DNA from: Desulfovibrionaceae bacterium
Lineage (GTDB): Bacteria; Desulfobacterota; Desulfovibrionia; Desulfovibrionales; Desulfovibrionaceae
Direction: 5' to 3'
Assembly: GCA_031082225.1 (NCBI GenBank)
Contig: JAVHLG010000015.1
Coordinates: 18,578-67,515, forward strand
DNA: 48,938 nt
In this document: one piece after another, positions 37,221-46,876 of the stretch
Layout of the letters: each line of letters starts with the position of its first letter
How positions within the stretch are numbered: position 1 is the first letter of the stretch
The notes under the pieces: model-generated
Database searches by the model: none
Told to the model about the DNA's origin: nothing
What the model saw: only the letters and a program-made list of their open reading frames with translations
Program-made: the position numbers and the translations under genes

Positions 37221-39032
37221 TCAGTCGGGAACCACGGCCAGCACCGTGTCCCCGTGGGCGTCGGTCACCGGGCGGCCGGTTCTGAGAAGCTCCAGCCAGC
37301 GGCGTATGGCCAGGGCCATGACCACGGCCATGAGGACCATGACCACGATGCCCAGGCCCGCCAGCAGGTAGCGGCCCTTGGGGAGGAAGTTGCCGAGGAT
37401 GCTCTGGTAGCCGGCCGCCAGGGTGGTCACGGCCATGAAAAGCCCGGGCACGGCCGTGGTCCAGACGTAACGGGCCCGGCCCAGGCGGATGAGCATGGTG
37501 GTGCCGATGATCAGCCCGCAGGCGGCCAGGAGTTGGTTGGACATGCCGAAAAGGGGCCAGATGGTGCTGATGTCGCCGGTATAGACCAGGTAGCCCCAGG
37601 CCAGGGTGAAGATCGCGCCGCTTAGGGCGATGCCCGGCCACCATTTCTCCCGGCCGAACTGCGGCCAGACCCGCGACAGCATCTCCTGCACGAAAAACCG
37701 GCCCACCCGGGTGCCCGTGTCCACGGCGGTCAGGATGAACACGGCCTCGAACATGATGGCGAAGTGGTACCAGTAGGCGTCAAGCTCGGTCATAAACGGC
37801 AGGGAGGCGAAGATGTGGGCCATGCCCACGGCCAGGGACACGGCCCCGCCCGTGCGCCCGTGGAGCTGTTCGCCCACGGCCCGGGACAGTTCGTCCAGGT
37901 TGACCGTGGAAAGCCCCATTTTTGCGAAGACGTCGGGGGCGGCGTTGATGGCGAAATAGTCCGCCGGAACCAGCACGCAGGCCGCAATGAGCGCCATGAT
38001 CGCCACCAGCCCCTCCACCAGCATGGCCCCGTAGCCCACGAACAGGATGTCTTGTTCGTTGCCGATCATTTTGGGCGTGGTGCCCGTGCCGATGATGGCG
38101 TGAAACCCCGACAGCGCCCCGCAGGCGATGGTGATGAACACGAAGGGGTAGACCGCGCCGGGGATGATGGGGCCGCCGCCGTGGATGAAGGGCGTCAGGG
38201 CGGGCATGGACAGGTCGGGACGCACCCACAGGATGCCCAGGGCCAGAAGCCCGATGGTGCCGATTTTCAAGTAGGTCGAGAGGTAGTCGCGCGGACACAG
38301 CAAAAGCCACACCGGCAGGGTCGAGGCCACGAGGCCGTAGGCCGGGATGAGGATGGACAGTTCCTTGCGGGAAAAGGTGAACCATGCGGACAGGACCGGG
38401 TGCGAGGCCACGTAGGGACCGGCCAGGATGGTCAGGAAGAGCAGAGCCACGCCCATAAGGCTGGCCCCGCGCACGTCCCCGCGCCGCCAGACGTGCAGAT
38501 GCAGCCCCATGAGGATGGCGATGGGGATGGTGGCCGCGACGGTGAAGGTGCCCCACGGGCTGTCGTGCATGGCCCCGATCACGGCCAGGCTGAGGCCCGC
38601 CAGGGTCAGGATCAGGATGAACAGCACGGCCACGGAGGCCGCCCGGCCGGCGAAGGTTCCGATCTCCAGGCGGGCGATGCGGCCCAGGCTTTTGCCCTTG
38701 TGGCGCACGGAGCAGAACAGCACCACCATGTCGTGCACCCCTCCGGCCAGGACGCAGCCGATGAGAATCCACAGGGCCCCGGGCAGATAGCCGTACTGGG
38801 CGGCCAGGACCGGCCCCAGAAGGGGGCCTGCCGCAGCGATGGCCGCGAAGTGGTGGCCGAAGATCACGAAGCGGTCGGTTTTCACGTAGTCCACGCCGTC
38901 GGCCATGGCCACGGCCGGGGTGGGGCGGCCGGGGTCCAGGCGCAGCATGCGGCGGGCCAGGAACAGCCCGTAGAACCGGTAGCCGATGGCGAACAGGCAC
39001 AGGGCGGCAAAAACCAGGGTGAAGGCGTTCAT
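37221..39032 (-). CDS. cstA: CstA-family carbon-starvation/pyruvate transporter
   Basis: A 603-residue polytopic protein of the CstA family (peptide or pyruvate uptake, induced on starvation in E. coli). Signature blocks are FVIFGHHFAAIAAAGPLLGP near the N-terminus, GGVHDMVVLFCSVRHKG, GFHAIIGTGTTPKMI and LFGMSNQLLAA near the C-terminus. About 14 or more membrane helices are visible. E. coli CstA is longer (701); this length matches the shorter BtsT/CstA-like group. The only ribosome-site hint is GGAA upstream of ATG 39032. Confidence 0.93.
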   Translation of the reverse strand: MNAFTLVFAALCLFAIGYRFYGLFLARRMLRLDPGRPTPAVAMADGVDYVKTDRFVIFGHHFAAIAAAGPLLGPVLAAQYGYLPGALWILIGCVLAGGVHDMVVLFCSVRHKGKSLGRIARLEIGTFAGRAASVAVLFILILTLAGLSLAVIGAMHDSPWGTFTVAATIPIAILMGLHLHVWRRGDVRGASLMGVALLFLTILAGPYVASHPVLSAWFTFSRKELSILIPAYGLVASTLPVWLLLCPRDYLSTYLKIGTIGLLALGILWVRPDLSMPALTPFIHGGGPIIPGAVYPFVFITIACGALSGFHAIIGTGTTPKMIGNEQDILFVGYGAMLVEGLVAIMALIAACVLVPADYFAINAAPDVFAKMGLSTVNLDELSRAVGEQLHGRTGGAVSLAVGMAHIFASLPFMTELDAYWYHFAIMFEAVFILTAVDTGTRVGRFFVQEMLSRVWPQFGREKWWPGIALSGAIFTLAWGYLVYTGDISTIWPLFGMSNQLLAACGLIIGTTMLIRLGRARYVWTTAVPGLFMAVTTLAAGYQSILGNFLPKGRYLLAGLGIVVMVLMAVVMALAIRRWLELLRTGRPVTDAHGDTVLAVVPD

Positions 39033-39209
39033 GGGGGGTTCCTGAAAGAGGGTTCACTGCCGGGGGCGCGCCGCCAGGGACGAAAAACCCTGATTTCATG
39101 GGCGTGTTTTTTGGAAAAGGCAAGGGGGAGCGGGCGAAGGATCGTTCCTTTCTTCTTGGTCTGCCCGTCAGGTGGTCACCATCTCAACAGGCCCGGACCA
39201 ATTTCGCCC

Positions 39210-39238
39210 TTGCCATATGGTCATTTCGTCTATACATT
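39210..39238 (+). promoter_or_regulatory. Promoter abutting the brnT start codon
   Basis: TTGCCA at 39210-39215, 17 bases, TACATT at 39233-39238. Only six bases separate the -10 from the ATG and no ribosome site is present, which predicts a leaderless message. Confidence 0.55.
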
Positions 39239-39244
39239 CTGCCC

Positions 39245-39508
39245 ATGCAGTTTGAGTGGGACGAGGCCAAACGGCAGGCGAACATCACAAAACACGGCCT
39301 GGACTTTGTGGAGGCCGTGGCCGTACTCGAAGATGCGCCCACGCTTTTCGTTGACGACCGCTTTGATTACGGCGAACCCCGCTGCATCGCCATCGGAGAG
39401 GCCAAAGGCCGGGCGCTGGTGGTGGCGTTTACGATGCGCGACGGCGTCTTCCGCATCATCTCCGTGAGAAAGGCCAACGTCAGGGAGAGGAGGAAATATG
39501 CCGACTGA
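39245..39508 (+). CDS. brnT: BrnT-family toxin
   Basis: An 87-residue RelE-fold ribonuclease toxin. Family phrases are FEWDEAKRQANITKHGLDF at the N-terminus, the central DDRFDYGEPRCIAIG, and RIISVRKANVRERRKY at the C-terminus, the usual BrnT ending. Toxin precedes antitoxin, as in brnTA. The start has no ribosome site and lies at the expected transcript start (see 39210-39238). It overlaps brnA by 11 bases. Confidence 0.92.
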   Translation: MQFEWDEAKRQANITKHGLDFVEAVAVLEDAPTLFVDDRFDYGEPRCIAIGEAKGRALVVAFTMRDGVFRIISVRKANVRERRKYAD

Positions 39509-39854
39509 AAGGATCGTAAACGGCAGGACGATCACCCGGTATACCGCCAAGGAGGCCAAAAACCTCCCGTCGCAATCGGACTGGCCGCGCGTCGACGCCA
39601 TGGCCGACGCGGAACTGACCGAAAACGCCATTTCCGATGCGGACAACCCGCCGCTTGACGACGCCTTCTTCGAGCGGGCCAAGCGGGTCCGCCTGGAGGA
39701 TTTCATGCCGGAGACAAAGGAAAAGGTCTGCCTGCGTCTGGATCGGGACGTGGTGGCCTGGTTCCGCGCCCGGAAGAAGAAGGGCTATCAGACGGCCATA
39801 AATGCGGCGCTGCGGGCGTTTATCGCCAGCCAGTCCACCGGGCAGGGACGGTAG
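39498..39854 (+). CDS. brnA: BrnA-family antitoxin
   Basis: A 118-residue antitoxin that neutralises BrnT and represses the operon. A hydrophilic N-terminal half precedes the ribbon-helix-helix C-terminus, with KEKVCLRLDRDVVAWFRARKK and GYQTAINAALRAFI, typical of BrnA. AGGAGG lies just upstream in the brnT end. An element repeated near hicAB follows at 39961-40022. Confidence 0.9.
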   Translation: MPTERIVNGRTITRYTAKEAKNLPSQSDWPRVDAMADAELTENAISDADNPPLDDAFFERAKRVRLEDFMPETKEKVCLRLDRDVVAWFRARKKKGYQTAINAALRAFIASQSTGQGR

Positions 39855-40042: not shown

Positions 40043-42307
40043 TTATCCGGCAGGCTGCTCCACATCGCCGCAGGCCTGCGGCGTCGGCTTGGCCTTGTCC
40101 GCCACAAGCGTGGCCACCCCGCATCCGAAGAGGGCCTGGACGCCGGATATGATCGGGTCCACGATGGAGACGGCGGCCATGCCCACCACCACCGCCGGTT
40201 CCAGAGGCAATCCCAGGGGGCCGCAGACGATGGCCAAAAGGAGGACATAGGACAGGCCTATGGTGCCGATGGCCGACACCACGCACAGAAGCGCCAGGAA
40301 GGCGATGGCGATATATTGCCCTGGCGTGAACGACACGCCGAAGGCCTGGCCCACGAAGATCGGGGTCAGGGCGAAAAACGCCGCATAGGCGTAATGGCAC
40401 ACCAACAGGGCGAAGGGATAGGCGGCCGTGATCTGCGCACGGTCGATCTGCGGATAGTTTTTCAACCGTTCCAGGCCGATGGGCATGGAAATGACGCTGC
40501 TGCGGGTTGAAAAGGACAAAAGAAAGATCGGTCCGAAATCCCGCCAGACGGCCGCAATCGGAATCCCGAGTTTCCAGCGGAGCAGTACAAGAGCCAGCAG
40601 GCCGCCGGGAAGAAACGCCAGGGTCAGGCACACCACCAGGCGCAGGATGGCCAGCATGAGTTCGAGGCCGGTCGAGGCGACGAAGTCCAGGGACAGGGCG
40701 TAGAGGGCGAAAGGCAACAGATAGAGGGACATGCGGATCATGATCGTGAAGGACTCCAGGATGGTGTCCATGATGCCGATCAGGGTCGTCTTGGCCTCTT
40801 TTTTCCCCGCCGCCACCGCCACCCCGAAAAAAATCGCCACGAAGAGCACGGCCAGATTCTCGTTGTTGACCATGGGGGCCAGCAGGTTGTCGGGGACGAT
40901 GGTGTCCACCATATCCATAAGCTGATCGTACAGGCCTCCGCCGGGCTGCGCCGTCGGCATCCCCTTGTTCATGGAGGCCAAAAGCCCTTGCGCCTCCTTG
41001 GAGAAATCCGCCCCGGGCCTGCCCACGATGCCGATGCCGACGCCCAGAAGCGACGCGCCGAGCAACAGAAGCGGCGTCCACGCCAGCAGGCGTTTTATGA
41101 GCCGTGCGTTGCCGCCGCAGGCCAAAAGCCGGTAGGTGCTGGTGACGATGGCCGCGACCATGATCGGCAACACGCACATGCGCCAAAATCCCATGTACAG
41201 CCCGGCCGGGCGGGAGAGGTAGGCGGCCAGAAAAGGAAAATACAGGCCGGTCAGGCCGCCAAGCCCCATGGCCGCCAGCACCGTCCAGGGCGACAACAGC
41301 CAGTGCTGGCCGGAGGGCCTGCGCATCACCGTGGCCCACAGGACGCCGAGCGCCAGGAGGTGCAGCACGGCAACCAGGGCCATGTCTTGCATGTCGACGC
41401 GTTCGCCCTGCGGCGCGGGCCCGGCCACGGCCGGGACAGCCTCCCCCGGGGGCGGACCCGTCGGCCCCAGGTACTGGTCGACGATTTCCCGCGGCGTCGC
41501 CTTCGGGCGCAGGGGATGGACTTCCAGATAGTCATTGATCCAGCGCAAGAGGTCCGGCCTGCCCGGGCTGACCGCAATGGCGCAGGGATCGTCCAGGCTC
41601 GGGGCAAGGCGGTCGATCTTATAAAGCAGCCCCGGGTCGGCCTGCACGGCGATTTCGAAGATGGCCTCTCCGACCATGCTCAACTCGGCCTGCCCCTCAT
41701 AGGCCATGGCGATGGCGGTTGCGGGAGATGCTACGGGTATGAGTTGGGCCCTGGGAAAAAGCTCCCTGACAAGAGGCTCCAGGGAGGAGTGGGCCATGGT
41801 GGCGATCCGGAAGCCGGGCGTGTTGAAATGGCGCGCCACATCCTGCACCGACGTAAGGTCGGCGGCGTCGATGCGGTTTTGGGCCATGACCAGCCGGTTG
41901 GCGAGGAAAACGGCGTGGGACAGGATATAGGGGCGGCTGAAGAATACCCGCTGCGCGCGGGCCACGTTTTTGGTCAGTTCGCTTAGGCCGATGTCCACGG
42001 TCATGGCGGCCACGGCGTCCACCAGGCCGTCCCAGCCTCCGGGAACCCTGACGAACTCCGGCCGCACGCCGAGGGCCGCAGCCATCTGGCGGGCCAGGTC
42101 CACGTCAAAGCCCGTCAGGCGTCCGTCCTTCTCGAAGACGTAAGGGGGATCCTGGGCGTCGGTGACGCCGATTCGCAAGACCCCGGAGAGCTGAATCTCC
42201 CGGATATCGCCCGGCATGGACGACGCATGCAGTCCGGCTCCAAGCCAGGGCAGCGCCAGGAGAACGATCAGGAAGGACAGGCTGACGATCCGGGACACGT
42301 GCCGCAT
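40043..42307 (-). CDS. Fusion of periplasmic substrate-binding protein and SDF-family transporter
   Basis: A 754-residue single polypeptide. After a signal or anchor (1-29), residues about 35-282 form a family-3 amino-acid-type binding protein (VLRIGVTDAQDPPYVFEKDGR; LTGFDVDLARQMA; GWDGLVDAVAAMTVDIG). A Pro-rich linker leads to a sodium:dicarboxylate/amino-acid symporter (SDF) domain from about 310. The HP1 Ser motif STRSSVISMP (600-609) and NNENLAVLFVAIFFG remain. The NMDGT sodium motif of TM7 is replaced by CHYAY (637-641), and TM8 lacks the Arg-Thr and Asn of the substrate site. GGAG lies before ATG 42307. Substrate and coupling ion are unknown. Confidence 0.88.
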   Translation of the reverse strand: MRHVSRIVSLSFLIVLLALPWLGAGLHASSMPGDIREIQLSGVLRIGVTDAQDPPYVFEKDGRLTGFDVDLARQMAAALGVRPEFVRVPGGWDGLVDAVAAMTVDIGLSELTKNVARAQRVFFSRPYILSHAVFLANRLVMAQNRIDAADLTSVQDVARHFNTPGFRIATMAHSSLEPLVRELFPRAQLIPVASPATAIAMAYEGQAELSMVGEAIFEIAVQADPGLLYKIDRLAPSLDDPCAIAVSPGRPDLLRWINDYLEVHPLRPKATPREIVDQYLGPTGPPPGEAVPAVAGPAPQGERVDMQDMALVAVLHLLALGVLWATVMRRPSGQHWLLSPWTVLAAMGLGGLTGLYFPFLAAYLSRPAGLYMGFWRMCVLPIMVAAIVTSTYRLLACGGNARLIKRLLAWTPLLLLGASLLGVGIGIVGRPGADFSKEAQGLLASMNKGMPTAQPGGGLYDQLMDMVDTIVPDNLLAPMVNNENLAVLFVAIFFGVAVAAGKKEAKTTLIGIMDTILESFTIMIRMSLYLLPFALYALSLDFVASTGLELMLAILRLVVCLTLAFLPGGLLALVLLRWKLGIPIAAVWRDFGPIFLLSFSTRSSVISMPIGLERLKNYPQIDRAQITAAYPFALLVCHYAYAAFFALTPIFVGQAFGVSFTPGQYIAIAFLALLCVVSAIGTIGLSYVLLLAIVCGPLGLPLEPAVVVGMAAVSIVDPIISGVQALFGCGVATLVADKAKPTPQACGDVEQPAG

Positions 42308-42368
42308 ATCCTGCTCCAGGGAAGGCGTTATAGGGAATGTTTTATCATATGCCCGTGCAGGTTTTGAG

Positions 42369-42460: not shown

Positions 42461-42598
42461 ATGACTGGGTATGAGAGGATCTCCTGCCACCTCAACAGGG
42501 GCCGTCCGACCTCTGTGGTGGTCTGGGAGATCGAAAACAAGTCAATTCGCGTGGTGGAGGTGACCTCTGTTGAAACTCACGAAAACGCCCCGTACTGA
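42461..42598 (+). CDS. Truncated RelE-like toxin
   Basis: A 45-codon frame starting MTGYERISCHLNRGRPTS and ending ETHENAPY. It looks like the C-terminal half of a small RelE-type toxin that normally precedes an HTH antitoxin. Codons before the ATG (REFFET) continue the similarity back to an in-frame TGA at 42428, so the N-terminal half seems lost. It overlaps the HTH gene by 29 bases, the usual toxin-antitoxin arrangement. Toxicity is doubtful. The family link rests on memory of such sequences. Confidence 0.45.
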   Translation: MTGYERISCHLNRGRPTSVVVWEIENKSIRVVEVTSVETHENAPY

Positions 42599-42899
42599 CG
42601 GTATGTGGGATATTCACGCCGTCGTTCCGGCGAACCGTGTCGAGGCCGTCGCCACGGCCATAGCGGAAGCGTCCGCAGCAGGCATCCCGGCCTCCGAGGT
42701 CTTGCCGGAGTCCACGCCGGGTTCGCTTTTGCGCGGCGCGCGTACCCTCATGGGCATGACCCAGAAGCAGCTTGCGGAGGCCATCGGGGTCACCGTTCCA
42801 AACCTCTCCGGGATGGAGAACGACAAGCGCCCCATCGGCAAGGCCATGGCCAAAAAGATCGGCGTCGCCCTGGACTTCTCCTACAAGGTCTTTCTGTAG
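42570..42899 (+). CDS. HTH (XRE-type) antitoxin
   Basis: A 109-residue protein. The C-terminal half is a Cro/C1-type helix-turn-helix (LMGMTQKQLAEAIGVTVPNL, then SGMENDKRPIGKAMAKKIG). The N-terminal half, with DIHAVVPANRVEAVATAI, is a partner-binding region as in HigA-like or RelB-like antitoxins. The start is TTG 42570, supported by GGAGGTG nine bases upstream; no ATG fits. It would repress its own operon and perhaps the divergent transporter. Confidence 0.8.
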   Translation: MKLTKTPRTDGMWDIHAVVPANRVEAVATAIAEASAAGIPASEVLPESTPGSLLRGARTLMGMTQKQLAEAIGVTVPNLSGMENDKRPIGKAMAKKIGVALDFSYKVFL

Positions 42900-42932
42900 C
42901 CCTCGGGGCTGGTCCGCCTTTTCTGTTTCTTC

Positions 42933-42960
42933 TTGACCATGGCGTCGCATGTAGTACCAT
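42933..42960 (+). promoter_or_regulatory. Promoter abutting the hicA start codon
   Basis: TTGACC at 42933-42938, 16 bases, TACCAT at 42955-42960. ATG 42967 is six bases after the -10, the same distance as at brnT, and there is no ribosome site. Confidence 0.55.
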
Positions 42961-42966
42961 ATGGTT

Positions 42967-43206
42967 ATGGGCTCAGCGGACAAGGTACTGGCCAGAATGC
43001 GGGAAAACCCGCGGGATTGGCGGATCGATGACCTGGAGAACGTCTCGCGGCGACTCGGCTTTTCGATTCGCAAGGCGCCTGGAAGCCATGTCACGTTCAG
43101 TGCGGTCGGATGCCAAACCGTCGTGACCGTGCCCGCCCACAAGCCCGTCAAACCGGTCTATATCCGCATGTTCCTGCGGTTGGCGGACGAGGCCGAGGAG
43201 GTTTAG
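42967..43206 (+). CDS. hicA: HicA-family toxin
   Basis: A 79-residue double-stranded-RNA-binding-fold ribonuclease toxin. The catalytic-type GSHVTF and the C-terminal VTVPAHKPVKPVYIRMFLR fit HicA/YcfA-like proteins, with LENVSRRLGFSIRKAPGSHV between. ATG 42967 is chosen because it is the predicted transcript start; ATG 42961 overlaps the promoter edge. Toxin precedes antitoxin, as is usual for hicAB. Confidence 0.86.
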   Translation: MGSADKVLARMRENPRDWRIDDLENVSRRLGFSIRKAPGSHVTFSAVGCQTVVTVPAHKPVKPVYIRMFLRLADEAEEV

Positions 43207-43208
43207 CG

Positions 43209-43577
43209 ATGGCCGACACAATGCCGAAATTTGAAGGCTACCCGTTTCAGATAACCCCCCTTTCCAGCGAGGACGGAGGAGGGTATCTGGTTACGTTCCC
43301 CGATCTCCCGGGCTGCATGAGTGATGGGGAAACCGTCGAAGAGGCCATTGAAATGGCCCGGGATGCGTTCAAATGCTGGATGTCCGTTTACATTGAGGAG
43401 GGGCGTGAGATACCGGCCCCGGGCGGTCACGGCCCGGCCTCCGGCAGGTTCAACCTGCGCACTCCCAAAACGCTTCACGCAAAACTCGCCCGACAGGCTG
43501 CGGCCGAAGGCGTCAGCATGAACACCCTGGCCGTGGCCCTTTTGGCCGAGGGGCTTGGGCATAGGGAAGCCCGGTAG
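43209..43577 (+). CDS. hicB: HicB-family antitoxin
   Basis: A 122-residue antitoxin with the HicB degenerate RNase-H-like domain (GGGYLVTFPDLPGCMSDGET, then VEEAIEMARDAFKCWM). A C-terminal ribbon-helix-helix-type segment follows (FNLRTPKTLHAKLARQAA, then SMNTLAVALLAEGL) for operator binding. GAGGAGG precedes ATG 43209, two bases after the hicA stop. A terminator follows at 43715. Confidence 0.92.
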   Translation: MADTMPKFEGYPFQITPLSSEDGGGYLVTFPDLPGCMSDGETVEEAIEMARDAFKCWMSVYIEEGREIPAPGGHGPASGRFNLRTPKTLHAKLARQAAAEGVSMNTLAVALLAEGLGHREAR

Positions 43578-43750: not shown

Positions 43751-43872
43751 CGTGAGCCCGGCTGCGGCACTCCCCGTGCCCCGGGCAGGGGTCGCCACCC
43801 CCGGCGCGCCTGAGGGTTTTTCACGTTGCGCGACGGTTCGCAGGCAGCGCCATGTCCGTCTTTTCGCGCCGA

Positions 43873-43886
43873 TTACGATATCGTAA
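43873..43886. promoter_or_regulatory. 14-bp perfect palindrome, possible enhancer site
   Basis: TTACGATATCGTAA. Its centre is about 130 bp upstream of the start predicted from the sigma-54 element at 43983, where an enhancer-binding protein site would be expected. Confidence 0.5.
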
Positions 43887-43982
43887 CCGGGTTTGGTCCC
43901 AGGATGGTAATTTTCGTTCCCGCCGCGTGTCAGGCAGGCGATCGGCCATCCGAAAGCCCCGCCGCGACAGGTGTGCAATATC

Positions 43983-43998
43983 CGGCACGATGCTTGCT
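43983..43998 (+). promoter_or_regulatory. Sigma-54 promoter of the GH-GT2/ABC operon
   Basis: CGGCACG, four bases, TTGCT: GG (43984-43985) and GC (43996-43997) are ten bases apart. The only deviation from the TGGCACG-N4-TTGCW consensus is the first base. Transcription would begin near 44009, leaving a leader of about 114 nt. Confidence 0.7.
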
Positions 43999-44122
43999 TA
44001 TGGGGGCTCGCCGGGATGCACGCGCGTCCTGCGGCGAAAAGAGTGAGACAAATCCGGGAACTCCCCGGAATCATGAAAAAAGCGGGGAAAAACGATCCCC
44101 GCGCACCAGGAGCGAAACATCC

Positions 44123-46876
44123 ATGTTCCAGATCGAAGAAGGACTCGCCATCGCCCCCATGGAACGCGTGCGCGCCCATGGCCGCTACCTGTTCGCCGGA
44201 GACGAAAAGTTCTTCATCAAGGGCGTCACCTACGGACCGTTCCCCGAGAATGAAAACGGCGAACCCCTGCCCGAGCGTGAACGCGTGGTGCGCGACTTCG
44301 AGATGATGCGCGCCGCCGGGGTCAACACCATCCGCGTGTACTACGTCCCGCCCCGCTGGTTCCTGGACCTGGCCCAGAGCCTGGGCGTGCGGGTCATGGT
44401 GGGCATCCCCTGGCCCCAGCACCTGTGTTTCCTGGACCAGTGGGAGGTCAAGGAAGAGATCAAAAAGGTTATCCGCGAGGCCGTCGCCCCCCTGGCCGGA
44501 CACCCGGCCATCCTGGCCTGGCTGATCGGCAACGAGATTCCCTCGCACATCGTGCGCTGGCACGGGGCCAAAAAGATCGAGAAGTTTCTGGCGAAACTGG
44601 CCGCCATCGTGCGCGAGGAAGACCCCGCGTGCATGGTGACCTACGCCAACTATCCGTCCACGGAATACCTGCGCCTGCCGTTTCTGGATTTCCTGTCGGT
44701 CAACGTCTATCTGCATGATGAAAAGGCCTTCCGGTCCTACGTCAAGCGCCTGCAAAACGTGGCCGGGGATCTGCCCCTGGTTTTGTCCGAGTTCGGCATG
44801 GACTCCATCCGCCAGGGCGAGGAACACGTGGCCGAAACCCTGGCCTGGCAGCTTCGGGCCGCCTTCGAACTCGGCGTCTCGGGCACCATGGTCTTCGCCT
44901 GGACCGACGAGTGGTTCACCGGCGGCAACCTGATCGAGGACTGGGCCTTCGGCATGGTGGACGCGGCCCGCAACCCCAAGCCCTCCTATGAGGCCGTGGC
45001 CGGGGTCTACCGGCAGCGTCTGCCGCTTCTGCCCGACGCCACGCCGCTGATCTCCGTGGTGATTTGCGCCTACAACGCCGACTCCACCATGGACGGCTGC
45101 CTGGCCTCCTTCCAGAAGCTGGCCTATCCCAACTTCGAGGTCATCGTGGTCGACGACGGCTCGACGGATAAAACCGGCGAGATCTCCGACCGCTACGCGG
45201 CCAAGTATCCCTACATCCATGTCATCCATCAGCCCAACCTGGGGTTGTCCGCCGCCCGCAACGTGGGCATGAACGCCTCCCGGGGCGAGATCGTGGCCTA
45301 CACCGATTCCGACTGCTACGTGGATCCGGACTGGCTGACCTACATGGCCTGGGCCTTTACCGATCCGCGCTTCATGGCCGTGGGCGGCCCCAACCTGCCC
45401 CCGCCCGAGGACAACCGCACCTCGGCCTGCGTGGCCGTCTCCCCGGGCGCGCCCACCCACGTCCTTTTGACCGACGAGGTGGCCGAGCACATCCCGGGCT
45501 GCAACATGGCCTACCGCCGTGAAAAGCTCATGGAGATAGGCGGCTTCGACGCCACCTATCGGGCCGCAGGCGACGACGTGGACGTGTGCTGGCGGTTGCA
45601 GAACGAGGGCTACATCATCGGATTTTGCGCGGCCATGATGGTCTGGCACCACCGCCGCAACACCGTCTCGGCCTACATCAAGCAGCAGAAAGGCTACGGC
45701 CGGGCCGAGGCCCTGCTTCTGCCCAAGCACCGGGACCGCTTCAACGTCCTGGGCAACTCCCGCTGGGCCGGGCGCATCTACGGCGACATCGGCGGCTGCC
45801 TCCTGGCCAACCGCCCCATCATCTACCACGGCGTCTTCGGCATGGGCCTTTTCCAGACCCTCTATGAGCCCAAGGGCAGCCTTGTGGCCTACCTGCCCCT
45901 GTCCATGGAATGGATGGTCCTGGCCCTGGCCCTCATGGTGGCCACGCCCTTCGTGCCGGTCCTGGGGATTCTCGGGCTGGCCATGGCCGTGACCTCCCTG
46001 GCCTTTGTCGGGCACCGGGCCAGCAAGGCCAAGCTGCCGGATCGCCACAACACCCTGGCCGCCCGGCTGACCATCGCCGGACTGACGCTTTTGCAGCCGC
46101 TTTGCCGGGGCTGGACGCGCTACAAGACCGTGTGGCAGTTGCGCAAGTGCGCCGCCCAGGCCGTGTGTCCCGTGCCCCTGGCTGCGGACATGCCCCATGA
46201 CGAGCGCGAGATGCCGAGGGTGGGGCTTGTGCGCAAGGCCTCCGAGATCGCCGGGGTCTTCTCCCACCGCCTGACCTTCCACCGTTTCTTCTGGAACAAC
46301 AAGGGCGTGGAGCGCGAGGAGCTTTTGTCCCATATCCTGTCCGTCCTGACCGGCCTGCACATGCCCTTCACCACGGATACCGGATTCTCCTCCATCTCCT
46401 CGGTGCCGCCCTGGGATCTGACCACCAAGACCGGCCTGTGGACCAGACTGAAGCTGCGGGTGACGGCCGAAAACCATGGCGGGTACAAACGGTTCGTGCG
46501 TCTGGCCGGAACCATCCTGCCCAGCAAGCGGTCCCTGCTCCTGCTGGCCGGATTGGCCGCCGCCGCCATCGCCATCCTGCCCCTGTCCAGCTATGCGGCC
46601 ATGGCCGTGGCCACCACGGCCGCGCTGTTCGCCGGATGGATGCTGTGGGGCCTGTACCGCGCCGCCGCCCTGGTGACCATGCTGGTGCAGTATCTCATGG
46701 TGCGCGGCCCCGGCGGCTCCCTGGAAGAGCCCATTGAGGAAGTCGTGGAAAAGCGTCGCGCCGCCAAGGCCCCGTCCCGCCGCACCGTGACCGGCGAAGG
46801 CGACGTGGAAGACCTTTCCGGACTGATCCCCGCATCCGCGGCCGGACACAAGACCGAAAACGTGCTGGCTGCCTAG
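44123..46876 (+). CDS. Membrane-anchored glycoside hydrolase/GT2 glycosyltransferase fusion
   Basis: A 917-residue protein. Residues 20-300 form a clan-A (GH2-like TIM barrel) hydrolase with the acid/base AWLIGNEIP (Glu138) and nucleophile VLSEFGMD (Glu223), both intact. Residues 308-560 form a GT-A family-2 transferase with DDGS (344-347), DSD (395-397) and GDDVD (483-487) plus a QQKGYGRAE segment. Hydrophobic segments follow near 575-620 and 795-855, with soluble parts between. It lacks a signal peptide, so both catalytic domains are probably cytoplasmic. ATG 44123 has AGGAG ten bases upstream. The next gene is an ABC exporter, which suggests synthesis and export of a glycan or glycolipid. 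Confidence 0.88.
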   Translation: MFQIEEGLAIAPMERVRAHGRYLFAGDEKFFIKGVTYGPFPENENGEPLPERERVVRDFEMMRAAGVNTIRVYYVPPRWFLDLAQSLGVRVMVGIPWPQHLCFLDQWEVKEEIKKVIREAVAPLAGHPAILAWLIGNEIPSHIVRWHGAKKIEKFLAKLAAIVREEDPACMVTYANYPSTEYLRLPFLDFLSVNVYLHDEKAFRSYVKRLQNVAGDLPLVLSEFGMDSIRQGEEHVAETLAWQLRAAFELGVSGTMVFAWTDEWFTGGNLIEDWAFGMVDAARNPKPSYEAVAGVYRQRLPLLPDATPLISVVICAYNADSTMDGCLASFQKLAYPNFEVIVVDDGSTDKTGEISDRYAAKYPYIHVIHQPNLGLSAARNVGMNASRGEIVAYTDSDCYVDPDWLTYMAWAFTDPRFMAVGGPNLPPPEDNRTSACVAVSPGAPTHVLLTDEVAEHIPGCNMAYRREKLMEIGGFDATYRAAGDDVDVCWRLQNEGYIIGFCAAMMVWHHRRNTVSAYIKQQKGYGRAEALLLPKHRDRFNVLGNSRWAGRIYGDIGGCLLANRPIIYHGVFGMGLFQTLYEPKGSLVAYLPLSMEWMVLALALMVATPFVPVLGILGLAMAVTSLAFVGHRASKAKLPDRHNTLAARLTIAGLTLLQPLCRGWTRYKTVWQLRKCAAQAVCPVPLAADMPHDEREMPRVGLVRKASEIAGVFSHRLTFHRFFWNNKGVEREELLSHILSVLTGLHMPFTTDTGFSSISSVPPWDLTTKTGLWTRLKLRVTAENHGGYKRFVRLAGTILPSKRSLLLLAGLAAAAIAILPLSSYAAMAVATTAALFAGWMLWGLYRAAALVTMLVQYLMVRGPGGSLEEPIEEVVEKRRAAKAPSRRTVTGEGDVEDLSGLIPASAAGHKTENVLAA

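Follow-up and report, generated by a model that had tools for sequence, protein, structure and literature searches.

The earlier secondary transporters that depend on a solute-binding protein (SBP) named in PMC12344293 are TRAP and TT, and no others. The same text describes TAXI-GltS (BP0403-BP0402) of Bordetella pertussis, whose SBP gene is translationally coupled to, or fused with, that of a transporter modelled as an elevator, and for which binding-protein-dependent secondary transport is proposed. Here we report on a single gene that joins a family-3 SBP to an SDF transporter domain, found in a stretch of 48,938 nucleotides from a Desulfovibrionaceae bacterium (contig JAVHLG010000015.1; the whole stretch is hereafter the window). 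We propose that it probably encodes a binding-protein-dependent secondary transporter built on an SDF (SLC1/GltPh-type) elevator and independent of Na+, and that the family to which it belongs is most likely a further class beside TRAP, TTT and TAXI-GltS.

As in TAXI-GltS, an SBP is joined to a secondary transporter. The components differ, with a TAXI-type SBP and GltS (ESS family) there and the Pfam domains SBP_bac_3 and SDF in the window; moreover, GltS is a Na+/glutamate symporter, whereas the window SDF has its Na+ residues replaced. A word search of the main text of PMC12344293 gave no occurrence of SDF or GltP. TRAP systems likewise combine a periplasmic SBP with a secondary elevator transporter (PMC12344293 and general background) but use other SBP and membrane families; the membrane domain here is PF00375, and DctM was absent among seven window neighbours scanned with Pfam. 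With GltPh, GltTk, GltP and DctA the family shares the predicted fold, PF00375, the serines of helical hairpin 1 (HP1) and the equivalent of D394 (30 of 36 members; GltPh numbering), and differs from them in having an SBP partner and no NMD motif, D312, D405 or Ser/Thr 93. The best Protein Data Bank (PDB) match of the family sequence profile is AncInt (9bgy/9bgz), an ancestral, uncoupled aspartate transporter and likewise a Na+-independent SDF; according to PMC12668577, AncInt lost its coupling through allostery with the ion sites unchanged, whereas here the site residues are replaced. Neither an earlier description of SBP-SDF systems nor a characterized SBP-SDF subfamily appeared in the literature searched, which was covered with narrow terms and partial listings and to the exclusion of preprints, most subscription papers and domain databases.

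Architecture of the fusion gene

A first-pass annotation made from the letters of the window had read the gene as a family-3 SBP fused to an SDF transporter, and both Pfam domains indeed exceed their cut-offs (Table 1). SBP_bac_3 matches residues 49-263 (E 8.6e-21) and SDF matches residues 341-737 (E 6.3e-41; 141.1 bits against a cut-off of 27.9), covering positions 3-385 of the 387 in the profile; this is the sole SDF match in the 4.08 Mb genome. The AlphaFold model agrees, with a mean predicted local distance difference test score (pLDDT) of 80.4 and a predicted template modelling score of 0.57 from a 20-row alignment that was judged by its identities alone. In the model a helix at residues 2-25 precedes the SBP fold, and a low-confidence linker and a second helix (306-328) lead on to the SDF fold. 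Foldseek matched the SBP part to amino-acid SBPs, including 9e2b (L-tryptophan-bound, E 4.8e-15) and AncCDT-1 (5t0w), and the predicted SDF part to GltTk and GltPh. VIA-align superposed the latter on ASCT2 (8qrs; Z 36.9, root-mean-square deviation 3.3, 379 residues) and on GltPh (6uwl; Z 36.8, deviation 3.8, 383 residues), so the predicted SDF domain has the elevator fold. A misread start of the fusion was ruled out by the single open frame together with the conserved GGAG and ATG.

Between SBP and SDF lies a single hydrophobic helix, at residues 309-327 by hydropathy in the window protein and at the same place in the fusions of the two other genomes of the genus (G001 and G002). A periplasmic SBP and a cytoplasmic SDF N-terminus require one crossing of the membrane, a need that this extra helix fits; residues 306-328 would thus place the SBP outside and the SDF N-terminus inside. 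A hydrophobic helix likewise occupies the joint in an SBP-SDF frame from Muiribacterium (L099:4071-6251). That frame looks fused and carries an in-frame TAG inside the SBP part (an assembly error, a real stop or recoding), for which it was excluded from the confirmed fusions.

Relatives, motif signature and selection

A genome-contig scan with the full fusion protein as query gave no relative, and scans with an SDF alignment were used thereafter. Scanning contigs with this alignment and one pattern in transmembrane helix 2 (TM2) yielded 22 loci which, going by record titles, belong to Desulfobacterota, Spirochaetota, Omnitrophota, Anaerolineaceae, Cyanobacteria, Thiomargarita, Lentisphaerae, Clostridia and Muiribacterium. 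On the same basis, searches with the SDF alone place relatives in at least eight phyla, and a lone oddity is ruled out by these relatives in other genomes. The family is nevertheless rare. Draws centred on a known member found it in 5 of 244 genomes from cyanobacteria and 2 of 149 from spirochaetes, and a draw from the phylum of the window, which includes the window's own genome, in 3 of 247; because these large draws scored part of the first-look candidates, members can be missed. In the phylum draw nine genomes exceeded the threshold, three at ≥462 bits and six at ≤218.

Other SBP-SDF fusions, which the first-pass annotation had suggested looking for, exist within the genus. Both other genomes of the genus carry the full fusion at 87 and 90% identity. 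In G033, of the same bacterial family, the two parts are overlapping open frames and the SBP ends in a membrane helix of its own; in G114 and G224, also of that family, they are adjacent genes. Farther off in the phylum, G429, G631, G650 and G579 have SBP-SDF pairs, the SBP of G579 being cut by a contig end. Relative to the SBP stop, the plausible SDF starts in these seven genomes range from 49 bases upstream to 50 bases downstream. An SBP-first fusion is the exception within the SBP-linked family and two neighbouring genes are the rule. Two observations stand beside these. In G075, from a different family of the order, fragments of SBP and SDF lie at contig ends and could be fused or separate. 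The SBP and SDF genes of G033 (L036:2-9958) run into what appears by eye to be an aminotransferase, oxidoreductase, methyltransferase and non-ribosomal peptide synthetase-type cluster.

We aligned the window SDF with 27 ordinary SDFs (Escherichia coli GltP, DctA, SstT and TcyP plus 23 from other genomes), taking the roles of the GltPh residues from PMC12668577 and general background. The alignment with GltPh-type homologues confirms the motif loss reported in the first-pass annotation. N310-T314 of GltPh correspond to C637-H638-Y639-A640-Y641, that is, CHYAY stands in place of NMDGT in TM7; the Na+ residues T92/S93, D312 and D405 are Leu/Leu, Y639 and G728; and in TM8 the substrate residues R397 and N401 are I720 and Q724, while the Asp equivalent to D394 is kept as D717. 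HP1 retains its serine motif as TRSS within residues 599-609, again as first described. None of the patterns NMD, NLD, N-x-DG, NMAG and [NG]QNG occurs in the window protein, and the flanking residues in TM7 and TM8 align; no hidden NMDGT equivalent was thus found elsewhere. An altered NMDGT is by itself not rare (NMAGA in SstT, GQNGC in TcyP), and on the alignment the unusual feature is loss of the whole Na+ set together with the presence of an SBP. Nor is the full signature of H+-coupled bacterial SDFs present, which in PMC12668577 consists of an aliphatic residue or Phe at 92, L311 and N405: the window protein has Leu, H638 and G728, and L311 occurs in 0 of 36 family members.

These changes follow a pattern common to all 36 SDFs of the SBP-linked type, and the word 'eroded' in the first-pass annotation is therefore the wrong one: the same positions are replaced in 36/36, which makes a family signature. 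D312 is found in no member and in 21 of 27 ordinary SDFs (one more has Glu), D405 in none and 19, and Ser/Thr at 93 in none and 24; NMD is likewise missing from all 36. R397 is present in 10/36 members against 23/27 ordinary SDFs, and D394 in 30/36 against 22/27. Position 311 holds Arg (19), Lys (3), His (3), Pro (9), Gly (1) or Ala (1) in the family, so that 34 members have a basic residue or Pro there and 22 have Arg or Lys, whereas ordinary SDFs have Met (17), Leu (6), Gln (3) or Arg (1). The changes in the window protein thus belong to this pattern, and Na+ coupling of the GltPh kind is unlikely. Near-identical rows (L090/L091/L093/L094, L081/L082 and L083/L084) inflate these family counts, from which L088b, a second SDF just downstream of L088 with no SBP of its own, was excluded throughout.

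The missing canonical motifs could also be those of a decaying or non-functional fusion. All three orthologues of the genus are open, and the ratio of nonsynonymous to synonymous substitution rates (dN/dS) of the whole gene is 0.28, 0.25 and 0.22 in the three pairwise comparisons, lower in the SDF part (0.12-0.22) than in the SBP part (0.29-0.33). The fusion is under purifying selection, by which a pseudogene is disfavoured, and with the same sites replaced in every member we consider decay highly improbable.

Linkage and matching trees of SBP and SDF

A family-3 SBP adjoins the SDF on the same strand at 21 of the 22 loci from the pattern scan; L080, L095 and L098 are records of alignment members, and the independent figure is 18/19. 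The first ATG of the SDF frame lies ≤100 bases from the SBP stop in 15/17 of these independent loci (L099 left out), several of them overlapping. The SDF profile alone gave eight more SDFs of the linked type, four with an adjacent SBP. Over all non-seed loci found by SDF alone an SBP is adjacent at 22/27, compared with 1/31 ordinary SDF loci, most of which have 1.5 kb flanks (L112 just 0.3 kb and L150 0.9 kb upstream). Four ordinary loci (L107, L109, L112 and L121) were checked for SBPs and left out of the tree. Eight SBP or SDF proteins encoded by separate genes were scanned with Pfam, and all eight were confirmed as SBP_bac_3 or SDF.

The members with no adjacent SBP gene vary in context. 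L151 and L156 share an array with a third SDF, which does have an adjacent SBP; L097 has a second copy in the same genome with an adjacent SBP; and L159 and L160 have no SBP within their 14 kb stretches. Among related arrangements, an Omnitrophota locus (L163:6184-15877, genome G728) holds three SDFs and one SBP, with intervening genes that by eye resemble phosphonate biosynthesis, and a cyanobacterial member with no SBP (L161:5698-8733) has an FHA-PAS-protein-kinase gene ~25 bases upstream.

In the SDF tree the 36 linked-type SDFs, the window SDF among them, form one clade (bootstrap 100, Shimodaira-Hasegawa-like approximate likelihood ratio test (SH-aLRT) 97) apart from the 27 ordinary SDFs, including GltP, DctA, SstT and TcyP. 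The clade persists with 33 members after removal of the longest rows (SH-aLRT 100); L086b, L088b, G075a and the partial L101 were left out of the tree. The 33 paired SBPs, including that of the window, likewise group in one clade (99/97), to the exclusion of 28 other family-3 SBPs; these comprise four named E. coli ABC-system SBPs and 24 of unchecked role. Against a family profile built without its genus and G033, the window SDF scores 270 bits, versus 123 on the ordinary profile; the window SBP scores 156 bits on the family profile versus 101.5 on the ordinary one. SDF and SBP tree distances are correlated (r = 0.94 over 30 pairs; 0.89 over the 26 that remain when the window genus and G033 are omitted; 0.86 over 21 thinned pairs), and 0 of 10,000 permutations reached the observed r in each of the three data sets. 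The two trees have 16 of 27 splits in common, some of which unite phyla, as for L087 (Anaerolineaceae) with cyanobacteria and G579 (the phylum of the window) with spirochaetes; these cross-phylum splits suggest that the SBP-SDF pair is transferred as a unit.

SBPs seem to have been recruited to SDFs repeatedly, as seen in reverse-order fusions and in one ordinary SDF. L131:5949-8156 and L132:4461-6638 encode an SDF followed by SBP_bac_3. Proteins of this reverse order (G398 and G347) fall outside both the SDF and the SBP clade and were counted neither with the 31 ordinary nor with the 36 family SDFs; matches to them occur in 9/297 genomes of the phylum, some less than full length. At L164:4126-6526 (G395) the recruitment is a separate one: there a family-3 SBP gene precedes an ordinary, NMDGT-type SDF.

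Proposed transport mechanism, sensor genes and surroundings

The tethered periplasmic SBP would capture a nutrient with a carboxylate group, probably an amino acid or a related compound, and hand it to the SDF domain. R117 of the SBP aligns with R77 of ArgT/HisJ, which we take to be the carboxylate-binding Arg. As its equivalent is kept in 33/33 paired SBPs, a ligand with a carboxylate is likely. We are less sure of an alpha-amino group, for which D161 of ArgT is presumably the contact: this position is Asp in 25/33 paired SBPs, whereas all three SBPs from the window genus have Gly. Gene neighbours vary between lineages and gave no substrate prediction. The SDF domain would then import the nutrient without Na+, as proposed because the Na+ side chains are gone, and the TM7 break has a fixed basic or polar residue that may take the place of the ion, in which case a proton or substrate gradient would drive transport. 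In most relatives separate, overlapping or closely spaced genes encode the two parts.

An SBP-dependent SDF would open such transport to study in a family whose motions, substrate site and ion sites are known, for the SDF is structurally very well studied (45 distinct PDB sequences matched). The loss of Na+ side chains together with SBP linkage would form a natural experiment on shifts in coupling and in the source of specificity. The finding points to another kind of nutrient importer in two parts, or to a combined importer and sensor. The first-pass proposal of an SBP-dependent secondary transporter outside TRAP thus stands as the best reading, given linkage, matching trees and purifying selection, and is partly supported overall.

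Several observations weigh against it. Five of the 36 members (L097, L151, L156, L159 and L160) have no adjacent SBP gene, and some may work alone or with a distant SBP; the Gly at the D161 position makes an alpha-amino ligand uncertain in the window genus; R397 is kept in the ten members noted above, so specificity differs within the family; the branch of the window genus is long (2.74 changes per column in the SDF tree); and shared descent of the host genomes also raises the tree correlation, a part of r that was not separated out. The five members without an adjacent SBP, like the ordinary SDF of G395 with its neighbouring SBP, would equally fit an SDF that works alone while the SBP merely raises the local substrate concentration or serves an ABC permease. 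The single clades and matching trees speak against that arrangement, as do the canonical Na+ residues replaced throughout the family and the absence of ABC permease and ATPase genes among the seven window neighbours scanned, and we regard it as decidedly unlikely.

The main rival to an importer is a sensory or combined role. A dCache-type sensor gene adjoins 12 of the 36 members (G631, L081, L082, L083, L084, L085, L089, G114, G224, L100, L153 and L158), upstream, downstream or divergent. Pfam found dCache in 11/11 neighbours scanned, several with scores beneath its cut-off, with SpoIIE in four, a cyclase in four and PAS in one: dCache, HAMP and SpoIIE in G631 (as L080), L081, G114 and G224; dCache and cyclase in L083, L084, L089 and L158; dCache, HAMP and PAS in L100; dCache and HAMP in L153; and only dCache in L085, where the contig ends within the frame, which matches a cyclase profile made for this analysis. 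L082 was recognized by profile alone, at a contig end. L060 and L061, like L080, L081, L083-L085 and L089, show dCache proteins beside SBP-SDF pairs, most of them having a SpoIIE or cyclase output. The number of dCache matches (E 0.001) is 20, 24, 21, 1, 6 and 1 in six genomes sized 2.1-5.8 Mb.

There is precedent for such a tie: according to PMC8307970, DctA is a structural co-regulator of the sensor DcuS in E. coli, again an SDF protein tied to a membrane sensor, in parallel with the dCache-SBP-SDF gene groups. That system lacks an SBP and its sensor is a kinase; most neighbours here have SpoIIE or cyclase outputs instead, and the window has no sensor gene. On this model the SBP-SDF pair might import little or nothing on balance and act mainly as a sensor or co-sensor (transceptor), setting the activity of the neighbouring dCache enzyme in the manner of DctA with DcuS. 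The 12 neighbours fit it, as do two spirochaete genomes in which the sole dCache match adjoins the pair (one of them beneath Pfam's cut-off), and the dCache profiles had no hit in 60 control loci (303 kb), although 8 of the 12 sensors seeded the main dCache profile and the control flanks are mostly 1.5 kb. Against it, these profiles found no dCache-type gene in the window or beside 24/36 members, some with short flanks, and the retained elevator fold, HP1 and D394 equivalent fit transport; a mainly sensory pair thus seems unlikely to us. Possibly, though less likely than not, the two-component Na+-independent elevator importers are also transceptors, the SBP-loaded transporter directly setting the output of its dCache partner (SpoIIE phosphatase or cyclase) in part of the family; the window genus would then have the same machine in a single polypeptide without an adjacent receptor gene.

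Table 1 Features of the SBP-SDF fusion gene and their window coordinates
Feature	Position	Strand	Basis or detail
SBP-TM-SDF fusion gene, 754 aa	40043..42307	(-)	one open reading frame, ATG at 42307
Ribosome-binding-site-like GGAG before ATG	42308..42317	(-)	identical in both same-genus orthologues
N-terminal hydrophobic signal, residues 1-29 (end estimated)	42221..42307	(-)	hydropathy; helix 2-25 in model
Family-3 solute-binding domain, ~residues 33-285	41453..42211	(-)	Pfam, model, Foldseek
SELTKNVAR, R117 aligned with ArgT/HisJ R77	41957..41983	(-)	alignment
VGEAIFE, ArgT D161 position is Gly	41654..41674	(-)	alignment
Low-confidence linker, residues 286-305	41393..41452	(-)	pLDDT <50 at 282-303
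Extra membrane helix between SBP and SDF, residues 306-328	41324..41392	(-)	hydropathy peak 309-327; model helix 306-328
Predicted SDF elevator transporter domain, ~residues 335-740	40088..41305	(-)	Pfam, AlphaFold model, VIA-align
TM3 stretch, T92/S93 of GltPh replaced by Leu/Leu	41042..41077	(-)	alignment
HP1 FSTRSSVISMP, serine motif retained	40481..40513	(-)	alignment
TM7 CHYAY at NMDGT position, residues 637-641	40385..40399	(-)	alignment
TM8 DPIISGVQALFG	40124..40159	(-)	D394 = D717, R397 to I720, N401 to Q724, D405 to G728

The seven window neighbours scanned with Pfam encode CstA, BrnT, BrnA, a helix-turn-helix (HTH) protein, HicA, HicB and a glycoside hydrolase/glycosyltransferase protein. 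cstA (window 37221-39854) lies downstream of the fusion in all three genomes of the genus, as identified by Pfam in the window and by eye in the other two genomes. A BrnT/BrnA toxin-antitoxin pair stands between cstA and the fusion in the window, on the other strand; judged by spacing alone, it is apparently absent in G001 and G002. Just upstream of the fusion, on the opposite strand, are the HTH protein and the HicA/HicB-like pair (42570-43577), and positions 43826-46876 hold a 1016-aa frame with a glycoside-hydrolase-like domain and a family-2 glycosyltransferase.

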